26,568 bases of DNA, taken from a virus. Location: the IMG/VR virus record IMGVR_UViG_3300006916_010289, positions 1 through 26,568 of that record; one strand, written 5' to 3'. Of the stretch, positions 10,868 through 25,320 are shown one piece after another. Made by a program: the position numbers and the translations under genes. The notes below the pieces were generated by a model. It saw nothing but the letters and a program-made list of their open reading frames with translations. It made no database searches and had not been told where the DNA came from. The stretch's first letter is position 1. Every line of letters begins with the position of its first letter.

Positions 10868-11401
10868 ATGCAATCTGTAAAGGTTGACGTTAAAGAAGAT
10901 ACAGTAAACATAAGAGACATTTGGCTAAAGAACGCCGAAAAAGCTAAAGAATTTGGTGGTAAAAGATTTCTTGGGTTTACAGAAAAAGGCGCTGAAGTAT
11001 GGGTTTCATATCTTTTAGATTTAGAAACTGGTTCTTTGACTGCCAAGTCATCACACGATTTTAGTGCATTGATGTATGAAGAAGCACAACTTGCTACAGC
11101 AAGAGTTACCGTTCCTAGAAACAAGGTTCAAAGAACCTCAACAGAGAGAATGGTTAGAGCTAATGCTAAAAACGCAGGTGGTAAAGTAACACTATTTACT
11201 TTGAGTTATATTCAAAGGTTATTAGATATGATAGATGGTAAGAACCCTAGGGCATTCGTCAAAGGTAAACCAACTACCTTACTTATGAATTACCTAGCAG
11301 GTGCTATCTATGAGGGTGACCTAGATGAAGAAAATGGTTTCACTTTTAGACAAGCTATAGAAGTAGCAAAGCTACCCGAAGGTGAATACTTTATAGTCTA
11401 A
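10868..11401 (+). CDS. Hypothetical protein with its own promoter
   Basis: A 177-residue protein with a good promoter and ribosome site. Residues 1-80 contain FLGFTEKGAEVWVSYLLDLE; the C-terminal half is helical with FTLSYIQRLLDMIDGKNPRA. Unrecognised. Its stop is immediately followed by the right copy of the inverted repeat. Confidence 0.8.
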   Translation: MQSVKVDVKEDTVNIRDIWLKNAEKAKEFGGKRFLGFTEKGAEVWVSYLLDLETGSLTAKSSHDFSALMYEEAQLATARVTVPRNKVQRTSTERMVRANAKNAGGKVTLFTLSYIQRLLDMIDGKNPRAFVKGKPTTLLMNYLAGAIYEGDLDEENGFTFRQAIEVAKLPEGEYFIV

Positions 11402-11488
11402 CAAAGAAGTATAGAAGATTACTAAGCAGTGTATATGTATAACACAATTATATTGCAAACGTAAGATGAGTGGGGGGTGTATTAAATG
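11402..11488. repeat. Right copy of the 87-bp inverted repeat
   Basis: Exact reverse complement of positions 1-87, beginning on the base after the stop of the gene at 10868. Here it carries a non-functional copy of the last seven codons of the leftward gene at 64 (reading QRSIEDY on this strand). Confidence 0.95.
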
Positions 11489-11551
11489 TTCGTTGCCCGA
11501 ATCTAAATAAGCCCCCTACCTAGTCTGCACATAAATTTTTTTATTTAGTAG

Positions 11552-11580
11552 TTGACAAAGTATACAAGGTATGTTATAGT
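11552..11580 (+). promoter_or_regulatory. Strong promoter for a small RNA
   Basis: TTGACA (11552-11557), 17-nt spacer, TG-T-TATAGT (11575-11580). No coding frame follows. Confidence 0.8.
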
Positions 11581-11586
11581 TATTAC

Positions 11587-11731
11587 TATAAGGCTGAACG
11601 GCTAGTTCAAAAGGGTAAGACCGTTCGTGATTTCTTCCAAAGAAGAGAGAGCATCCCCTGCTTTATTGGGTCCAATCCTATGGAGAGGAGTCTAGGGACA
11701 ATAGGGGAGGGGTCCGTTTTTATTTTCCAAT
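11587..11731 (+). ncRNA. Structured small RNA ending in a G/C-rich hairpin and U-tract
   Basis: About 145 nt from a strong promoter, with no plausible ORF. Helices read directly: GAACGG/CCGTTC, TCTTC/GAAGA with a CAAA loop, then CCCCT...AGGGG extended by ATTG/CAAT and TCC/GGA, followed by a T-rich tail (GTTTTTATTTT). Its CCCCTGCTxxATTGxxTCC core and GGAGTCTA recur in the leftward RNA at 17900-18074. No known family recognised. Confidence 0.55.
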
Positions 11732-11739
11732 CAAAAAAA

Positions 11740-11996
11740 ATCTGAATTCCAAAGTCGTCCAAATTTTAAATTTCAAAAATCTAAATCTATACTTTAGATA
11801 GAGGTCCGGACTATTTTCTAGTCACTAATGCCCAATGGATTAAAAAGGTTCCGGACATTATTGGGAATCTTAATGCAAATGGGAATCTAAACCTAAACTT
11901 TATATCTAGATTTTGGAGTTGGTAAATTTTGGTAAAAGTTCCGGGAGCTCCGTGGAGTATAGGATTTAACTCAAAAAAGAAATTAATTGTATTGAT
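11740..11996 (+). other. Non-coding region with TCCGGAC motifs
   Basis: No convincing ORF. It contains GGTCCGGAC near 11810 and GGTTCCGGAC near 11850, and a 3' stretch GGATTTAACTC-AAAAAAGAAATT that closely matches one at about 13831. Both matching stretches precede a TTGACA promoter. It may be part of the transcript starting at 11587 or a DNA-binding region. Confidence 0.4.
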
Positions 11997-12025
11997 TTGA
12001 CAAATGTCCTACTTTCTGTTAAGTT
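11997..12025 (+). promoter_or_regulatory. Promoter of the small-ORF cluster
   Basis: TTGACA (11997-12002), 17-nt spacer, TG-T-TAAGTT (12020-12025). The leader carries GAAAGG before the ATG at 12058. Confidence 0.75.
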
Positions 12026-12057
12026 ATTAATACAAGATAAAACAGAAAGGTTAAAAA

Positions 12058-12240
12058 ATGAAATACACATTGGCTGAACTTAATAAAAAGTATCAAAGTA
12101 AAGATATCTTTATTAACGCCACTATGGTTCCATCTTTTAATTGGTCTACTAGAGGTATCAAAGAGTTCACTATTAAGACTAGTAGTGTATGCCGGGAAAA
12201 CTTTGAGACATTAGAAGCCATTAATAGAAGACATAACTAA
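12058..12240 (+). CDS. Small hypothetical protein
   Basis: A 60-residue protein, first of a run of tiny genes behind the promoter at 11997. Unrecognised; basic and Ser/Thr rich. CAGAAAGG is the ribosome site. Confidence 0.7.
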   Translation: MKYTLAELNKKYQSKDIFINATMVPSFNWSTRGIKEFTIKTSSVCRENFETLEAINRRHN

Positions 12241-12252
12241 GAAAGGCAGACA

Positions 12253-12324
12253 TTGATTAGATTGTTATTAGCAATAATAGACGGACAGCAAAGTGAAGAA
12301 AAGGAAAACAATGAAGACATATAA
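12253..12324 (+). CDS. Possible 23-residue peptide with a TTG start
   Basis: A TTG-initiated frame with GAAAGG upstream, filling the space between two better small genes. A hydrophobic N terminus (LIRLLLAII) is followed by an acidic tail. Weak evidence beyond its spacing. Confidence 0.3.
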   Translation: MIRLLLAIIDGQQSEEKENNEDI

Positions 12325-12336
12325 GGAGAAAAAATA

Positions 12337-12462
12337 ATGCCTAAGTTAAAAACATATAAGATATTAGTAAAATTTGATGCGACTGACGAAAAAGACGCAG
12401 AAGATTTCGTTTACGATATGCAACCAAAAGATTGGTTAGAACATTTAGAGGAGGAAGAATAA
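12337..12462 (+). CDS. 41-residue acidic protein
   Basis: Starts after AAGGAGAAAA. The sequence (YKILVKFDATDEKDAEDFVY) suggests a short beta-alpha unit. The last codons (GAG GAG GAA GAA) encode Glu and also form the ribosome site of the next gene, whose ATG overlaps this stop. Confidence 0.7.
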   Translation: MPKLKTYKILVKFDATDEKDAEDFVYDMQPKDWLEHLEEEE

Positions 12463-12635
12463 TGGCAGATATCACAGAAGTATTAGATGAGTATTGCGAA
12501 AGTGTTTATGGTCATACTAATTGGGGATATACAAGCACATACTCTAAAGAAGAACTATCAGATAAATCTAAGTATGACCTTGAATTAGATAACAGTATTG
12601 TTATTTGGTATGAGGCATTAAAGGAGGAAGAATAA
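12462..12635 (+). CDS. 57-residue acidic protein
   Basis: The ATG at 12462 overlaps the preceding stop (TAATG) and uses the GAGGAGGAAG at the end of the previous gene. It ends in KEEE, again encoding a GGAGGAAG site for the next gene. Function unknown. Confidence 0.75.
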   Translation: MADITEVLDEYCESVYGHTNWGYTSTYSKEELSDKSKYDLELDNSIVIWYEALKEEE

Positions 12636-12778
12636 TGGCTATATATGCAAAGTTTGATTTCAACGTTTATATTGAAGTTCAAGATATCAATGATAGTAAT
12701 GAGATTAAAGACGCAGTAATTGACTGGTGGACTAGCACAACAGACTTACCGGACTATGAAATATTAGAGGAGGAATAA
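12635..12778 (+). CDS. 47-residue acidic protein
   Basis: TAATG overlap with the previous gene. A beta-rich N terminus (YAKFDFNVYIEVQD) resembles that of the protein at 12337 in layout. It ends LEEE, encoded by GAGGAGGAA, the ribosome site of the next gene. Confidence 0.7.
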   Translation: MAIYAKFDFNVYIEVQDINDSNEIKDAVIDWWTSTTDLPDYEILEEE

Positions 12779-12918
12779 TGCAAGCTGAATATTTTATTCA
12801 CGAAGTTATTGTGTCAGATAGTAAAGGTAAATTATATAATTTTAATAGTGATTATATGAACGAAAACTTTCAAGTTACTGAATACGATACCTTGACACCA
12901 ATAGAGGAGGAAGAATGA
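12778..12918 (+). CDS. 46-residue acidic protein
   Basis: TAATG overlap with the previous gene. It ends PIEEEE, encoded by GAGGAGGAAGAA, which serves the next ATG (overlap ATGA). Unrecognised. Confidence 0.7.
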   Translation: MQAEYFIHEVIVSDSKGKLYNFNSDYMNENFQVTEYDTLTPIEEEE

Positions 12919-13040
12919 AAGAACATTTAACAGAAGTTGTTTGGGAAGATATATTTGGTAACGAAGTCAAAAGAGACTTTTATGACTTAAGAAGTCCAGC
13001 TGAAAAAAAACTTTCTAAAGAACTTGACAAAAATAAATAA
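12915..13040 (+). CDS. 41-residue protein closing the tiny-ORF cluster
   Basis: Overlaps the preceding stop by 4 nt. The C terminus is Lys-rich (AEKKLSKELDKNK) instead of Glu-rich, consistent with no gene following. Its last codons contain the TTGACA of the next promoter (13024). Confidence 0.65.
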   Translation: MKEHLTEVVWEDIFGNEVKRDFYDLRSPAEKKLSKELDKNK

Positions 13041-13051
13041 TCTGTTAAGGT
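13024..13051 (+). promoter_or_regulatory. Promoter of a structured RNA
   Basis: TTGACA (13024-13029), 16-nt spacer, TG-T-TAAGGT (13046-13051). No ORF follows. Confidence 0.55.
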
Positions 13052-13057
13052 GGATTA

Positions 13058-13260
13058 CATAAGGTTAAGAAATTAACTTTATACAAGCTATTTATGTAGG
13101 ACGAGAGGAACCTTAGGGTGATAAAATTTCTAGGAAACTAGACATTCAAAGTCTGTAAGTAGCTTGTAGCACATAATAAAGGTTGGTAGTTCATTACTAC
13201 CTAGACACGAAACAACTAAACGCAGACCTCGTTAATTGTGTGTTACAAGCTATTTATGTA
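13058..13260 (+). ncRNA. Structured RNA with two competing repeat arms
   Basis: Non-coding. An exact 17-nt direct repeat, TACAAGCTATTTATGTA, occurs at 13082-13098 and 13244-13260. Between them TAAGTAGCTTGTA (13156-13168) can pair with either copy (13 pairs including one G-U). Additional hairpins: TCTAG/CTAGA with a GAAA tetraloop and GGTAGT/ACTACC (around 13184-13200). The mutually exclusive pairings suggest a switch-like or attenuating structure. The next promoter starts right after the second copy. Confidence 0.5.
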
Positions 13261-13265
13261 ATGAC

Positions 13266-13294
13266 TTGACATAGTGCCAAGACTATGTTATAGT
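13266..13294 (+). promoter_or_regulatory. Strong promoter with a symmetric spacer
   Basis: TTGACA (13266-13271), 17-nt spacer, TG-T-TATAGT (13289-13294). The spacer contains a perfect inverted repeat ACATAGT-gccaag-ACTATGT (13269-13288), a possible operator. Confidence 0.75.
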
Positions 13295-13300
13295 AATTAT

Positions 13301-13860
13301 ATTGATAGCGTGAAGTTATCACGCACGGCAACATTTCTTCTGAATGGATACATTCGTTAGGAAATGTGGTTATGTGAGAGACAAACTAGGGAGAATTACT
13401 AGGGGAATATGCTTTCTGCTCGGGTGAGACCGGGACTCACGGAGAGCGACGAAGGAGCCGGCACCTCGAGGGGTGGAGAACCGGAGCACCTAGCCAGTAA
13501 AAAGAGACAAAGAATTGACTTTGTTAACATTCTGTAGATGACTTGAGAGTTGCAGGACACCTTGGGTAACTGAGGTCGGCTGAGATTAAGCCATTAGGTA
13601 AGAGAGAGAATGTTATGGGAACGCCCCACTAAATCTGCGAGTTTCCGAAAATGGGAATGTTTGTGTAAACCGTATAGGTCTCATTCTGTGTAAAAAGAGT
13701 TGGAGGGTGAAAGTAACGGGTTCATCTGAATATAACTCAAGTGATAACTCCACGGTATCAATAAAACGGTCCGGACCCTCTTAAGTGAGGTAATGGTCAG
13801 ATACTGGAGGCTGGAATCTAACTGGAGACTGGATTCAACTCCAAAAAGAAATTAGGTTAC
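13301..13860 (+). ncRNA. Large structured non-coding RNA, first unit
   Basis: About 560 nt behind a strong promoter, with no plausible coding frame. Clear helices: GCGTG/CACGC (about 13308-13324); a stacked hairpin ACATTTC/GAAATGT enclosing GAATG/CATTC with a GATA loop (about 13331-13367); GTGAG/CTCAC (about 13424-13439); and a long-range 9-bp helix TAACATTCT (13525-13533) with AGAATGTTA (13607-13615). GGTCCGGACC lies near 13759. Near the 3' end are two imperfect copies of ACTGGAGxCTGGAxTC. It may be read through into the next unit. No known RNA family could be assigned; RNase P and group I intron cores are not visible. Confidence 0.6.
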
Positions 13861-13865
13861 AGAAT

Positions 13866-13894
13866 TTGACAAGTTATTCAAAACCTGCTAACTT
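13866..13894 (+). promoter_or_regulatory. Promoter of the second large RNA unit
   Basis: TTGACA (13866-13871), 17-nt spacer, TG-C-TAACTT (13889-13894). Confidence 0.6.
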
Positions 13895-13900
13895 GGTTAT

Positions 13901-14518
13901 ATATTCAATACGAACTTGAAATAGTGGTTCTGAGGATATTAAGAAAATTTGGCTTTTTGACAACAGAATATTTATATCAAACTTTAGCAAGATAATTTTA
14001 AGAGTTGGCTCGTAAAGTGTCCATAGTCTCGAAAAGAAACCTCTTGTTCGCTATGTTTTAAGAATTGTGAGAATACTAGTTAGGACCACAAGAAACCTAC
14101 TACCTCTAGCAACAATGTGAGCTTATCGGAAACTACCTGCACAGAGTAAGAGAGGAAACTCTCAGTTGCAACTAAACAGCTCTAAAGATTGTCTTACTAA
14201 AGTTTGGTAATCGAATATAAATGGATTACTAATTTGGATACTGGAGAGACTGTGCGAGGCAGTTAGTCGACAAGAGCCCCCTCAGAAAGTATCCATAGTT
14301 TTAAAGGTCAAAGGGTGATGACATAGCAATGAGGTGGAAAGCCAATCGTGTGTGTTGCTGTGTAGCTCTACAAAAAGGAAACTGTGAAGGACACACGACT
14401 GTGCAGTTTCTCGTTAAGGGAAATAGTGTCGGAGCTTGAGATTCCAAGTTGGTAAATAGCTCCTCAATGGACACAAACTTGGATTCCCTTTAATCCTACT
14501 TTGTGAAATTTTTCACAA
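13901..14518 (+). ncRNA. Large structured non-coding RNA with a 3' pseudoknot domain
   Basis: About 620 nt without a plausible ORF. Helices: CATAG/CTATG around 14022-14055; GAGAG-GAAA-CTCTC (14150-14163); TGGTAATC/GATTACTA (14205-14212/14224-14231); GGATACT/AGTATCC (14236-14242/14288-14294); GAAACTG/CAGTTTC (14378-14384/14404-14410). The 3' domain is closed by AAGGGAA/TTCCCTT (14416-14422/14484-14490) and holds GTGTC/GACAC and GGAGCT/AGCTCC. The loop of the latter, TCCAAGTT (14443-14450), pairs with AACTTGGA (14476-14483), forming a pseudoknot. It ends with hairpin TTGTGAA/TTCACAA (14501-14518). Size, phage context and GNRA loops recall the GOLLD/ROOL class of giant phage RNAs, but membership is not shown. 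Confidence 0.65.
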
Positions 14519-14544
14519 GGATATAAAATAAATCTTAAATAAAG

Positions 14545-14572
14545 TTGACATAGTTTTAAATCTTGTTAAATT
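14545..14572 (+). promoter_or_regulatory. Leaderless-type promoter
   Basis: TTGACA (14545-14550), 16-nt spacer, TG-T-TAAATT (14567-14572), ATG exactly 6 nt later at 14579. Confidence 0.7.
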
Positions 14573-14578
14573 GGAAGT

Positions 14579-14722
14579 ATGCAAAAACATAAACTAACAT
14601 TCTACACACCACAGAGTTGGGTTTACTTATTCAGTATCCCTACAAGCTCTATGCGTGTAGAAAACTTCCTAATAAACACATTAGGTCGTTATCTTATGTT
14701 CTCGAAAGACATTAGGTCCTAG
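14579..14722 (+). CDS. 47-residue protein, leaderless start
   Basis: The ATG lies 6 nt after the -10 box, so translation would begin at the mRNA 5' end; GGAAG is too close to act as a normal ribosome site. Unrecognised product with a hydrophobic/aromatic centre (WVYLFSIP). After the stop, GTGTGGA...TCCACAC (about 14735-14763) forms a hairpin. Confidence 0.55.
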   Translation: MQKHKLTFYTPQSWVYLFSIPTSSMRVENFLINTLGRYLMFSKDIRS

Positions 14723-14788
14723 AGACGTGGGGCAGTGTGGAGCCTTTCAACAGAATCCACACACGATGAAAAAAATTTTCAATAAGAG

Positions 14789-14816
14789 TTGACAAAGATT
14801 ACAGAAAGATTAAAGT
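14789..14816 (+). promoter_or_regulatory. Leaderless-type promoter
   Basis: TTGACA (14789-14794), 16-nt spacer, TAAAGT (14811-14816), ATG 6 nt later. Confidence 0.7.
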
Positions 14817-14822
14817 AAGAGT

Positions 14823-15110
14823 ATGAATATTAAAAAAACTATAAAACAAAAAGGGGGTGTGAAAATGTCCGAACAAACAATAGACAAGCGTTTCGTTTGC
14901 AAAACTTGTTCCATGGTAACCAAATCAAATGGTTACTGTAACAATGGTCATAAAGTTGTTAGCTCAAGAGCTTTGCTCAAGAGTATGTTCTTTGATAATA
15001 CAGATAATACAACTCTGTTATTAACAAATAACGGCAACTTCGACAATAGCTATAGTTTGCAATCCGACTTCGAGGAAGCCGGTTACTTACTAGACGCTTT
15101 GCGCGAATAG
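14823..15110 (+). CDS. Small zinc-ribbon-like protein with two possible starts
   Basis: 95 residues from the leaderless ATG at 14823, or 81 residues from the in-frame ATG at 14865, which has a GGGGGTG ribosome site. CKTC...YCNNGH (CxxC then C...H) suggests a zinc ribbon in the first half; the acidic C terminus ends EEAGYLLDALRE. Both starts may be used, giving forms that differ by a Lys-rich N-terminal tail. Function unknown; a DNA- or RNA-binding role is possible. Confidence 0.75.
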   Translation: MNIKKTIKQKGGVKMSEQTIDKRFVCKTCSMVTKSNGYCNNGHKVVSSRALLKSMFFDNTDNTTLLLTNNGNFDNSYSLQSDFEEAGYLLDALRE

Positions 15111-15184
15111 GTCCATTTGCTTTGAACGGGGTTCGCTGTTACCTGTCAACAGAAAACAGCTCCAAATATTTTTTTATTTAATCC

Positions 15185-15213
15185 TTGACAAGTAGAACAT
15201 TATTTGTTAGGGT
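15185..15213 (+). promoter_or_regulatory. Promoter of the DUF2958 operon
   Basis: TTGACA (15185-15190), 17-nt spacer, TG-T-TAGGGT (15208-15213). Confidence 0.7.
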
Positions 15214-15219
15214 TAAAGT

Positions 15220-15353
15220 ATTAACCGACAAGCTAGGAGTAAAAATCTTAGGACTAGAGACTGAAAGTTTCGGGAGAGGTGGGAAACCATAACTTATAAA
15301 CCTCTTAAATACCCGAGGAGTAAGTCAAAGGTATAAGGACCTAGCAGGTTAAT
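15220..15353 (+). ncRNA. Structured 5' leader
   Basis: It starts at the predicted transcript start and ends before AAAGGAG. Closing helices ATTAACC/GGTTAAT (15220-15226/15347-15353) and CTAGG/CCTAG (15233-15237/15340-15344) enclose CGGG/CCCG (15271-15274/15312-15315) stacked on AGAGGT/ACCTCT (15275-15280/15300-15305). This is riboswitch-like architecture ahead of a gene; no known class recognised. Confidence 0.5.
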
Positions 15354-15381
15354 AAAGATTAACAAAACAAAAGGAGACACG

Positions 15382-15696
15382 ATGAAGTTAGTAACCAAAG
15401 AACTTGAAAACAAGTTCCCCGAAATATACGAGACACAAAGACAAGAGGACCCAATAGTGCAAGCGAAATATTTTTGCCCGTGGAATAATTGGACTTGGTA
15501 TGCGACAGAGTTTGATAAAGAAGAGGGAATCTTCTACGGACTTGTAGCAGGTCACGAAGTTGAATTAGGATACTTTGACCTTGAGAGCTTTGAAATAGTA
15601 ACAGGACCATTTGGAATGAAAGTAGAGAGAGACCTTTACTGGACACCAACAGCTTTAAGCGAAGTAGAGAAGATGGAAAGGGAAGCACGTGGATAA
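15382..15696 (+). CDS. DUF2958 family protein
   Basis: 104 residues. The stretch DPIVQAKYFCPWNNWTWYAT, then EFDKEE...FYGLVAGHEVELGYFDLESFE, and ERDLYWTPTALSEV matches the DUF2958 family, small proteins frequent in plasmids and phages with unknown function. A structured leader and AAAGGAG precede it. It overlaps the next gene. Confidence 0.75.
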   Translation: MKLVTKELENKFPEIYETQRQEDPIVQAKYFCPWNNWTWYATEFDKEEGIFYGLVAGHEVELGYFDLESFEIVTGPFGMKVERDLYWTPTALSEVEKMEREARG

Positions 15697-20246: not shown

Positions 20247-20328
20247 GGGGCTGATAGGTAAGCTCCAGTAAGTAGGAATAACTCCTGCCTGTTGGAGAAC
20301 TTGGGTTCAATTCCCAACAGCTCCACCA
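20247..20328 (+). ncRNA. tmRNA-like/tRNA-like element with encoded CCA
   Basis: 82 nt. The acceptor stem GGGGCTG/CAGCTCC (7 pairs) has G3-U70, the alanyl-tRNA synthetase identity pair, followed by A and CCA. The T-arm TTGGG-TTCAATT-CCCAA is canonical. The 5' GGGGCTGA and 3' CAGCTCCACCA ends are those of bacterial tmRNA. No standard D-arm or anticodon arm fits: CTCCAG can pair with TTGGAG around a 23-nt loop, or CTCC with GGAG. There is no room for a tmRNA coding domain. It could be a tmRNA mimic, a degenerate tRNA-Ala, or an integration site copied from host ssrA. Confidence 0.6.
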
Positions 20329-21843: not shown

Positions 21844-22245
21844 ATGGCAGAACGAGGCAGACCAAGTAAGCTAACAGCAGAGCTCACAAAGAACATATGC
21901 AAGTGGTTAAATCACGGTATGTTTATTGAAGATGCAGCTCGAATGGTTGGTATTCATAAATCAACATTGTATCGATGGATTGAACAAGGTCGTAAAGATA
22001 GAGAAGAAGAAATCACTAGTTTGTATGGTGATTTTTGCGACGCTATAGAGCTTGCTAGAGCTCAAGCTGAGGGTGTTTATCTTAACTCAATTAAGTCTGC
22101 AGCAGCTCGTGGTCAATGGCAGGCAGCAGCTTGGTGGCTAGAGCGTTCTTTCGAAAAATGGACTAAACCTAACAAGGTTGAAATAGGTGGTTCTGATAAA
22201 GAACCCGTCAAAGTTCAGATTAAATATAGTGGTGACAAGAAGTAA
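21844..22245 (+). CDS. Phage terminase small subunit-like HTH protein
   Basis: 133 residues. The N-terminal GRPSKLTAELTKNICKWL, the HTH IEDAARMVGIHKSTLYRWIE (28-47) and the later GQWQAAAWWLERSFEKWTKP give the layout of small terminase proteins, which recognise the packaging site and help the large subunit load DNA. A TAGAAT box lies upstream without a clear -35. No large terminase follows within the window, which is unusual, so a different HTH regulator role cannot be excluded. Confidence 0.65.
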   Translation: MAERGRPSKLTAELTKNICKWLNHGMFIEDAARMVGIHKSTLYRWIEQGRKDREEEITSLYGDFCDAIELARAQAEGVYLNSIKSAAARGQWQAAAWWLERSFEKWTKPNKVEIGGSDKEPVKVQIKYSGDKK

Positions 22246-22690
22246 AGTTTAGGGTCGCCCGCCGATGCCTAATGAATCAATGTCACTTGAAATGACACCA
22301 TAAATCACCTTTTTTTACTGTTGCCCTTTTGGGCAGGGGGTATTCTACACGTTTTGATGCTGTGTCCCACACTTATTGTCGGTATATTAAGTTGTTTATA
22401 GTATTTACTATAGCATATAAGGGGTATTTTGTCAAATAAGATGGTGGTATTACGCAAAAAAATTTCGCCGACCTCCGGTATGGTAATAGACCTTATAACA
22501 ACGGTGTTGCGGGGCTGCAGGGGTTCTTTTCCCCTTTGTAGACTGTTCGCACAGAGAACTGGACGCCCTTGTATTCATTGCTGAATTAGGGCTTAACCGA
22601 CAATAAAGGAGACTATGACTTAACAATCTAGAAAGATTAAGAAAGTCATCTCTTACTTTAATAATAGCATACTATATCTAGTGTTTTATT
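22246..22690. other. Gene-free region with promoters and hairpins
   Basis: No ORF of convincing size. Hairpins: TGCCC-tttt-GGGCA near 22322, AGGGG/CCCCT near 22519, and a nested ATGACTT...AAGTCAT with AATCT/AGATT inside (about 22615-22650). AAAGGAG precedes a two-codon ATG ACT TAA. It may encode RNAs on both strands. Confidence 0.4.
22407..22435 (-). promoter_or_regulatory. Leftward promoter with palindromic -10
   Basis: Minus strand TTGACA (22435-22430), 17-nt spacer, TATAGT (22412-22407). The palindrome TATAGTATTTACTATA (about 22397-22412) also offers TATAGT to the plus strand, with TTGTCG 16 nt upstream. No ORF follows on the minus strand. Confidence 0.6.
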
Positions 22691-22695
22691 GCAAA

Positions 22696-22821
22696 CATAC
22701 CATATAGTGTGTTCATAGGTGACCATACCATATGTAGTATGTTCATAGGTGAACAGGGGGGTGTTCGTATATGAACAGGGGGTCGCTCATATGTGAACAG
22801 GGGGGGTGCTCATATATGAAC
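22696..22821. repeat. Palindromic iteron array
   Basis: Five 14-bp near-palindromes of consensus GYTCRTAKRTGAAC at 22711, 22741, 22763, 22785 and 22808. The last three intervals are 22-23 bp, about two helical turns, with G-run spacers (CAGGGGGGT). CATACCATAT occurs at 22696 and 22724. This is typical of an operator cluster or replication-origin iterons upstream of the HTH gene at 22973. Confidence 0.7.
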
Positions 22822-22908
22822 AACGAACTATACCTATATAACTAAACCTAATAACTATACCTACTTAACTACTTAGAGAGAGCTAGTAAAGAAATACTTG
22901 TAGAAGAG

Positions 22909-24347: not shown

Positions 24348-24743
24348 ATGTTAGCTAAAGACAATGACAGAATGCTGGAGGTTTCATTCGAACAAATAGA
24401 ACATCACGGCAACTCTATGGAAATGGTAAGGTCATTTGAGTCAGAACTTGAACACTATAATAATGTAGTTTTTGGTAGAACTCAATCACCAGTATCAGAA
24501 GGTATTTCTACAATGTATGAAATCAGTGTTGCTTATTACGCAAGAGCAAAAGAGATAGAAATGTATTGCAAGAAGTTTGAGAGTGGTATAGATGTTGGAA
24601 AGACAAGACACCCACTATATAAGTTTAGAACCGGTCAGCTTAATGTATTTATTGAGATGATAAAAGAACTTACTAAACTTGGTAGTAGAAGAATAACTGT
24701 AGCTCAAATGATGTTACAAGAGGATTTAAGAGACCAACTATAG
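24348..24743 (+). CDS. Hypothetical protein
   Basis: 131 residues after AAAGGAGAC. Helical with several Met and Glu; central SPVSEGISTMYEISVAYYAR. No family recognised. Last gene of its operon; a structured RNA follows within 5 nt. Confidence 0.7.
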   Translation: MLAKDNDRMLEVSFEQIEHHGNSMEMVRSFESELEHYNNVVFGRTQSPVSEGISTMYEISVAYYARAKEIEMYCKKFESGIDVGKTRHPLYKFRTGQLNVFIEMIKELTKLGSRRITVAQMMLQEDLRDQL

Positions 24744-24747
24744 TTTA

Positions 24748-24974
24748 GGTGGGTTACGTCCTTTCGCGCGTTTGAGAAGTCCTTCGAGTATCTACTGGGC
24801 TGTTGAGCAGCAAGTGGTTAAGTAACTGCAAGGGTAAACATTGTTCCTGTCATACTTATTTGGATAGGTTCCCGACATAACCGGACGGGTATAAGGCAAA
24901 GGATGGAGCCTAGGTTAGAGAAAATCTAATCTGTGTCGCAAGACTGAGGCAGACGCGAATTAGAGTAGCCCACC
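24748..24974 (+). ncRNA. 227-nt structured RNA with a 10-bp closing helix
   Basis: GGTGGGTTAC (24748-24757) pairs with GTAGCCCACC (24965-24974) and is followed by ATTTTT. One pair is U-G on the plus strand but would be A-C on the minus, as is one in GGTTAGA/TCTAATC (24913-24919/24925-24931), so plus is the transcribed strand. TTCGCG/CGCGAA (24763-24768/24954-24959) continues the closing domain. GGTT/AACC and CCCG/CGGG at 24867-24889 interleave as a small pseudoknot. No ORF, no known family recognised. Confidence 0.6.
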
Positions 24975-24978
24975 ATTT

Positions 24979-25320
24979 TTAAGAACGTGAACCACCGTCA
25001 TACCAAAGTGCGTGTCCTTTATCTACCATTTTTTCGTTGATATCTACACCGTCTATCATTAGTGTCCCTAGAACTCTACCGTATTTACCAGTTCCGTGTG
25101 ATTGCATTTCAACTTCTGCATCTTCTAACTCTTCTATGAGCCAATCTTTCGCAGCCAGCCCTCGTTTTTTCTCTTCCAAATCTCTTGTTCGTGATTCCGG
25201 AGCATTAATACCCATAAGTCGAACACGACATTTATGCCACACATTGAAACCCAAATCAATTCTAACATCTACTGTATCCCCATCTACTACTCTTAAAATC
25301 TCTATTTTGTAATAAAACAT
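24979..25320 (-). CDS. Staphylococcal nuclease-like (thermonuclease) protein
   Basis: 113 residues from the ATG at 25320, 7 nt after TATACT; the longer frame to 25425 starts upstream of that promoter box. The SNase fold shows RVVDGDTVDV (D13, D15), RLMGINAPES (R34, E42) and GKYGRVLG (R82), matching the catalytic and calcium-binding residues of the family, which hydrolyses DNA and RNA phosphodiesters. There is no signal peptide with this start. Plausible roles are host DNA degradation or nucleotide recycling. Confidence 0.85.
   Translation of the reverse strand: MFYYKIEILRVVDGDTVDVRIDLGFNVWHKCRVRLMGINAPESRTRDLEEKKRGLAAKDWLIEELEDAEVEMQSHGTGKYGRVLGTLMIDGVDINEKMVDKGHALWYDGGSRS

Follow-up and report, generated by a model that had tools for sequence, protein, structure and literature searches.

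A 26.6-kb phage fragment from IMG/VR (26,568 nt, hereafter the window) carries a genuine and previously uncatalogued RNA family, as judged by comparison with homologues, and its key part is the segment at 13976-14208, termed domain 1 (Table 1). We consider this segment probably to be a structured RNA that stands alone and acts in trans, from a family specific to phages and carried by actinobacterial tailed phages, with an outer clamp, an invariant rod surface and a dimer contact. This reading draws on a fold that is conserved, on the RNA's occurrence in three related groups of phages, and on the absence of both an ORF and a constant downstream gene. The original prediction, made from the window alone, had placed a structured non-coding RNA, possibly of a new family, at 13901-14518, and both proposals have held, with covarying helices in homologues, no conserved ORF and no Rfam match. 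The covarying helices were found in the 5' half of that region, where comparison supplies the strong evidence for a structured RNA.

Table 1. Positions of the RNA features and reference genes in the window
Feature	Position	Strand	Remarks
Promoter-like site of RNA-C	13866-13894	+	TTGACA, 17 nt, TAACTT (weak -10); identical in L005; uncalled by consensus scan
RNA-C, putative primary transcript, ~620 nt	13900-14525	+	placed behind promoter-like site; ends inferred
Domain 1, conserved RNA family	13976-14208	+	covariance model (R1) score, covariation; 233 nt in window, 233-256 nt in relatives
Outer helix P1, 5' strand	13976-14007	+	29 pairs, formed with 14177-14208
Inner rod, 5' strand (GGCTCGTAAAGTGTCCATAGTCTCGAAAAG...)	14008-14036	+	predicted to pair with 14122-14147
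Inner rod, 3' strand (...CTTATCGGAAACTACCTGCACAGAGT)	14122-14147	+	
Junction hairpin GAGAG-GAAA-CTCTC	14150-14163	+	double-sided changes in 5/5 pairs; all cells (100%) paired
Conserved palindrome AGTTGCAACT	14164-14173	+	L019: GTTCGAAC; L018: GGTTGCAACC; putative dimer contact
Outer helix P1, 3' strand	14177-14208	+	
Domain 2, add-on 3' domain	14310-14525	+	only window and L005
Domain 2 helices	14321-14330/14354-14363; 14377-14384/14404-14411	+	
42-nt segment completing the predicted pseudoknot	14438-14479	+	absent from L005
3' terminal hairpin ATCCT..TTGTGAAATTTTTCACAAGGAT	14493-14522	+	kept in L005; uncalled as terminator
RNA-B, second conserved structured RNA, ~460 nt	13302-13761	+	own promoter 13266-13294 (TTGACA-17-TATAGT)
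tmRNA-like RNA, 82 nt, tag-less	20247-20328		~6 kb from RNA-C
Terminase small subunit (terS/TerS)	21844-22245		

The domain-1 family comprises eight distinct phage contigs in three related groups. A pattern from the 5' half, CTTATCGGAAACTACCTGC, matched five further phage contigs in IMG/VR, and a second, GGCTCGTAAAGTGTYCA, added L023, the only true homologue among its extra matches, the others being mostly coding or unrelated (L022, L024-L030). The alignment consisted of the window, L005, the five CTTATCGGAAACTACCTGC contigs and L023, all eight sequences being distinct. The covariance model built for domain 1, R1, recognized the eight contigs at 218-248 bits (E 1e-54 to 1e-61; window 217.9 bits), and its next matches were generic hairpins at about 20 bits or less; those at 13155-13257 belong to the adjoining RNA-A and do not represent a second copy. 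Four separate exact-pattern scans of IMG/VR from different places in domain 1 returned the same family. Three matches in a scan of genome contigs (L032-L034) were not supported by R1, and L053 proved to be coding. In the annotated phage genomes of INPHARED, blastn found no match to the window block or to a homologue RNA, so that metagenome comparison is the main way into this family; searches of the literature returned no description of it. The window possesses all features of the family, namely the P1 helix, the junction hairpin, the invariant rod and the palindrome.

The fold combines a three-way junction with a long outer helix and an inner rod of invariant sequence. RNAalifold assigned 60 consensus pairs to the eight sequences, 31 of which show double-sided changes that keep the pair, compared with 18.8 +/- 2.3 in shuffles (0 of 500 reached the observed count), and the covariation score was 0.461 against 0.172 +/- 0.018 (again 0 of 500). 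Pairing was present in 93.1% of cells, versus 34-43% when partners were slid. In P1, double-sided changes affect 22 of the 29 pairs, with 88.7% of cells paired; its sequence differs in almost every member while pairing is nearly always kept, as in L018, where TTTAGAGACTTTCAGAGGA pairs with TCCTCTGAAAATCTCTAAA. Because pairing and not sequence is kept, the outer helix may serve as a clamp only. The junction hairpin likewise varies, from GAGAG-GAAA-CTCTC to GGGG-TTAACG-CCCC and other forms, and the window's version confirms at least one of the many GAAA-loop hairpins initially proposed for the region.

The inner part behaves differently. Two blocks are invariant or nearly so in the eight sequences and are predicted to form an irregular rod, a pairing based on thermodynamics and invariance and not on covariation, which cannot reach the rod because it does not vary. 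In all members, 66-74 of the 79 rod-block positions are identical to the window, whereas the TerS proteins of the same phages share 43-45% or 63% of amino acids with the window's TerS, and the ArdC-like proteins share 24-30% between groups. Near-invariance of the rod alongside such protein divergence points to unusually strong purifying selection on an RNA surface. Selection of this kind would be expected if the rod's internal loops touch a conserved host component, and these loops may form the surface recognized by a conserved partner, which is most likely a protein or RNP of the host. Few phage RNA families combine strong covariation with near-invariant blocks across phages whose proteins are about 25-60% identical.

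Invariance could alternatively reflect a short coding sequence, since in L017, L019 and L021 the segment ATGGCTGTAGAAGTT... reads MAVEVIEKLARKVS... behind an in-frame ATG, giving about 30-63 codons, and the frame reads ARKVSIVSKRN in most members. The same frame, however, has no start in the window, L005, L018, L020 and L023, and it meets an early stop in most members and a frameshift in L023. Moreover, the block is near-invariant at all codon positions with no third-position variation pattern, the helices covary, and no Pfam match was obtained, making a coding origin highly improbable. The initial statement that the region has no ORF is correct for the plus strand of 13901-14518, where none of at least 50 aa occurs; the one ORF listed there is on the minus strand (14301-14474, 57 aa) and looks spurious.

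The window has replication genes at its left (replication initiator, SSB, ParB-like), and related contigs encode a two-domain terminase large subunit (TerL) and, in one contig, WhiB. The terminase genes (TerL/TerS) and WhiB thus mark the phages bearing domain-1 RNA as tailed phages that infect actinobacteria. From 13.0 to 14.8 kb the window is almost without coding sequence and contains several RNA-like stretches, some with their own TTGACA-type promoter. The domain-1 RNA could instead be a cis-acting leader (a riboswitch, attenuator or processing element) of a downstream phage gene, as it stands before small genes both in the window and in members of the G006/G008/G010 group. Nevertheless, the next gene is convergent in L018, L020 and L023 (ArdC-like/IrrE-like metallopeptidase), and in L018 the RNA is followed by a hairpin, AGAGCAGG..CCTGCTCT, with seven T, the loop of which is too long for the scan used; both facts argue against the RNA being a leader of that gene. 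In L020 the outer helix's own 3' strand leads into eight T, the next gene in G008 (KTSC) has its own TTTGCA/TATAAT promoter in between, and downstream genes vary from group to group. A leader function is consequently unlikely.

In every case the domain-1 RNA is on the same strand as the terminase genes, with terS a few kb away, and its conserved segment is self-complementary. These features would suit an oligomeric packaging-type RNA acting with the terminase after assembly through self-complementary loops, as in phi29 pRNA, a phage RNA that self-assembles through loops. The likeness would be confined to loop self-assembly, with no relation apparent in sequence or position. Several kb and many genes separate the RNA from terS, standard TerS and two-domain TerL proteins are present, and no domain-1 copy was seen in the related groups G004 and G005, whose sequences are fragments; a packaging role therefore appears very unlikely.

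Within the favoured interpretation as a trans-acting RNA, self-complementarity may serve dimerization. An exact palindrome, GUUGCAAC (14165-14172), lies just 3' of the junction hairpin, with GUUCGAAC in L019, and all members have one form. Longer forms are AGUUGCAACU, in the window and four other members, and GGUUGCAACC, in L018, where a flanking A-U pair is exchanged for G-C; the outermost pair is lost in L019 and L023. The change from GUUGCAAC to GUUCGAAC in L019 is a double change that preserves the exact palindrome, and because the two central bases are unable to pair inside one hairpin, it is most simply explained if selection has maintained pairing from one copy to another. This single double change, in L019 alone, together with one A-U to G-C extension, suggests that the palindrome is a self-pairing dimer contact, through which two RNA copies may join. 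The family offers a short, testable RNA (~235 nt) whose invariant surface is defined and for which the predicted dimer contact is precise.

The complexes formed by GOLLD, ROOL and OLE are held together in part by symmetric kissing contacts (PMC12286853), and the self-complementary contacts proposed here resemble the kissing loops reported for GOLLD and ROOL. Together with the phage context and the size, this likeness could suggest a diverged ornate RNA of either type, a kinship that the original prediction had suggested and for which Rfam covariance models gave no match. At gathering thresholds, cmscan of the window and seven homologue loci returned no GOLLD, ROOL or other match for RNA-C, and at E<=5 neither GOLLD nor ROOL was matched in 11300-15400, L050 or L049. 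Within the block, low-score Rfam matches to snoZ118, mir-9437 and part of a plastid intron were attributed to chance. Like GOLLD, which forms a homo-oligomeric nanocage, RNA-C is a large structured phage RNA for which self-pairing contacts are plausible; GOLLD members, however, are often longer than 800 nt, and their 3' region is conserved throughout (PMC12286853), whereas the part conserved here in eight contigs is 233 nt and 5', its 3' part being lineage-specific, the opposite of the GOLLD pattern with its variable 5' region. GOLLD also often lies beside tRNA islands, whereas ARAGORN found no tRNA, and hence no tRNA array, in the window, but only the odd tmRNA-like RNA listed in Table 1. With ROOL the RNA shares phage encoding, an ornate structure and possible homo-oligomerization, but the domain-1 fold is simpler (one outer helix, one hairpin and one rod), and in place of ROOL's multiple covariation-supported pseudoknots RNA-C has a single proposed one, in a segment absent from L005. 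Descent from GOLLD or ROOL is accordingly extremely unlikely. OLE RNA provides a parallel as an RNA-only dimer built from conserved symmetric contacts, but is bacterial, mostly from Bacillota, and ~600 nt long, with no match in the window.

If transcribed as a unit, RNA-C would consist of a 5' leader, conserved domain 1, a linker, domain 2 and a 3' hairpin. The preferred model would give the domain-1 RNA a promoter of its own; against this, several copies have promoters that are weak or uncalled. The promoter first proposed for this RNA contains a perfect TTGACA at 13866-13871, but at the right spacing only a poor -10 element (TAACTT, 13889-13894), and the consensus scan did not call this promoter. 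On the plus strand before domain 2, no other promoter was called except a weak one at 13877. A shared 5' element, TTGGCTTTTTGAYA, occurs at 13948-13961 of the window and upstream of the RNA in L018, L020 and L023, about 50-60 nt before the invariant GGCTCG block.

The closest different relative is L005 (contig IMGVR_UViG_3300025070_003546), 88-91% identical across the region. In the window the linker measures ~100 nt; that of L005 is ~325 nt long and contains an open frame of ~56 codons with no Pfam relative. The domain-2 helix at 14377-14384/14404-14411 has two compensatory pairs between the two sequences, with the remaining pairs invariant; two extra matches of a domain-2 pattern, GATGACATAGCAATGAG, in L013 and L014 were protein-coding chance matches. 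Domain 2 was not seen in the other groups, and the window lineage may have gained this 3' domain of ~200 nt; the terminal hairpin is a possible 3' end of RNA-C. Within this domain, the original prediction had emphasized a pseudoknot between TCCAAGTT (14443-14450) and AACTTGGA (14476-14483), and these partners and the flanking GGAGCT, AGCTCC, GTGTC, GACAC, AAGGGAA and TTCCCTT segments are all present as named. The emphasis itself was misplaced, as the pseudoknot needs the 42-nt segment absent from L005 and conservation lies in the opposite half of the region. The missing 42 nt, between GGAGCT and TTGGATTCCC, remove TCCAAGTT, AGCTCC, GACAC and the AAC of AACTTGGA, whereas AAGGGAA/TTCCCTT and an alternative partner of GGAGCT, AGCTCT (14364-14369), are kept in both sequences. 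Given this loss and the retained alternative pairing, the pseudoknot would be at best a lineage-specific ornament. The claim that complementary segments exceed chance is sound for the whole 618 nt (31 inverted 7-mers versus 17.5 expected, P 0.016; MFE -157 versus -142.9 +/- 6.1 in shuffles, z -2.3) but marginal for the 3' domain taken alone (z -1.15, P ~0.03-0.05).

RNA-C has company in the non-coding block, and because the neighbouring RNA-A and RNA-B have relatives in other phages, its region is one element of a conserved RNA cluster. RNA-B has homologues in L049, L050 and L047, with 108 consensus pairs, 44 of them changing on both sides, and 91% pairing versus 33-40% when slid; with no Rfam match, it represents, on this comparative evidence, a second, larger new RNA family. 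Further along the window, the tmRNA-like RNA scores 43.4 bits against the tmRNA model (E 5e-15), just under the gathering score of 47. It has a 5' GGGGCUGAU, the acceptor GGGGCUG/CAGCUCC, a G3-U70 pair, a T-arm and CCA, with one simple P2-like hairpin in place of the tag frame and pseudoknots and no mRNA-like domain, and is conserved with compensatory changes in L049 (13942-14023), L050 (3673-3754) and L047. Phages with complete tmRNAs are known (PMC9004378); no description of this minimal tag-less form was found. This RNA could be a decoy for AlaRS/SmpB. That the genomes with domain-1 RNA also bear a second new RNA and a tmRNA-like RNA of minimal form suggests that phages of actinobacteria use RNA to take over their hosts. 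It is conceivable, although we hold this only tentatively and think it rather doubtful, that the homodimerising rod RNA of domain 1, the 460-nt ornate RNA-B and the tag-less mini-tmRNA form a conserved actinophage kit of trans-acting RNAs that together manipulate translation or transcription in the host, a conserved factor of which would be titrated by the invariant internal loops of the rod.

Several further observations concern the surrounding sequence. Segments resembling TTACAAGCTATTTATGTA recur in the non-coding RNA-A (~13036-13260), which has relatives in L049 (9999-10165) and L047. A leader module of ~60 nt (GAAGCYTCCAYAATGAGCGATGAGGTA.A.ATGGACGCTCGGCTTC) with a potential pseudoknot is found in L049 (12300-12370) and, on the minus strand, just upstream of RNA-B in L047; in G008 and G010 it stands ahead of the domain-1 RNA, in G006 ahead of RNA-B. 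An exact inverted repeat links positions 1-87, at the contig start, with 11402-11488 of the window. In the related contig of L004-L006, the block from 11402 to ~16990, including the ncRNAs, is present twice as inverted arms of ~5.7 kb each around a ~12 kb unique segment, the arms differing at one position; the window lineage therefore probably carries two copies of each RNA, to judge from this arrangement. A non-coding stretch at 15138-15330 is conserved in L049, and another after terS, at 22596-22874, is conserved in L047 and L050 and is possibly a packaging site or RNA. Finally, ~240 nt of non-coding sequence at 24740-24980, with GGTGGG/CCCACC brackets followed by a T-run, looks like another structured RNA.
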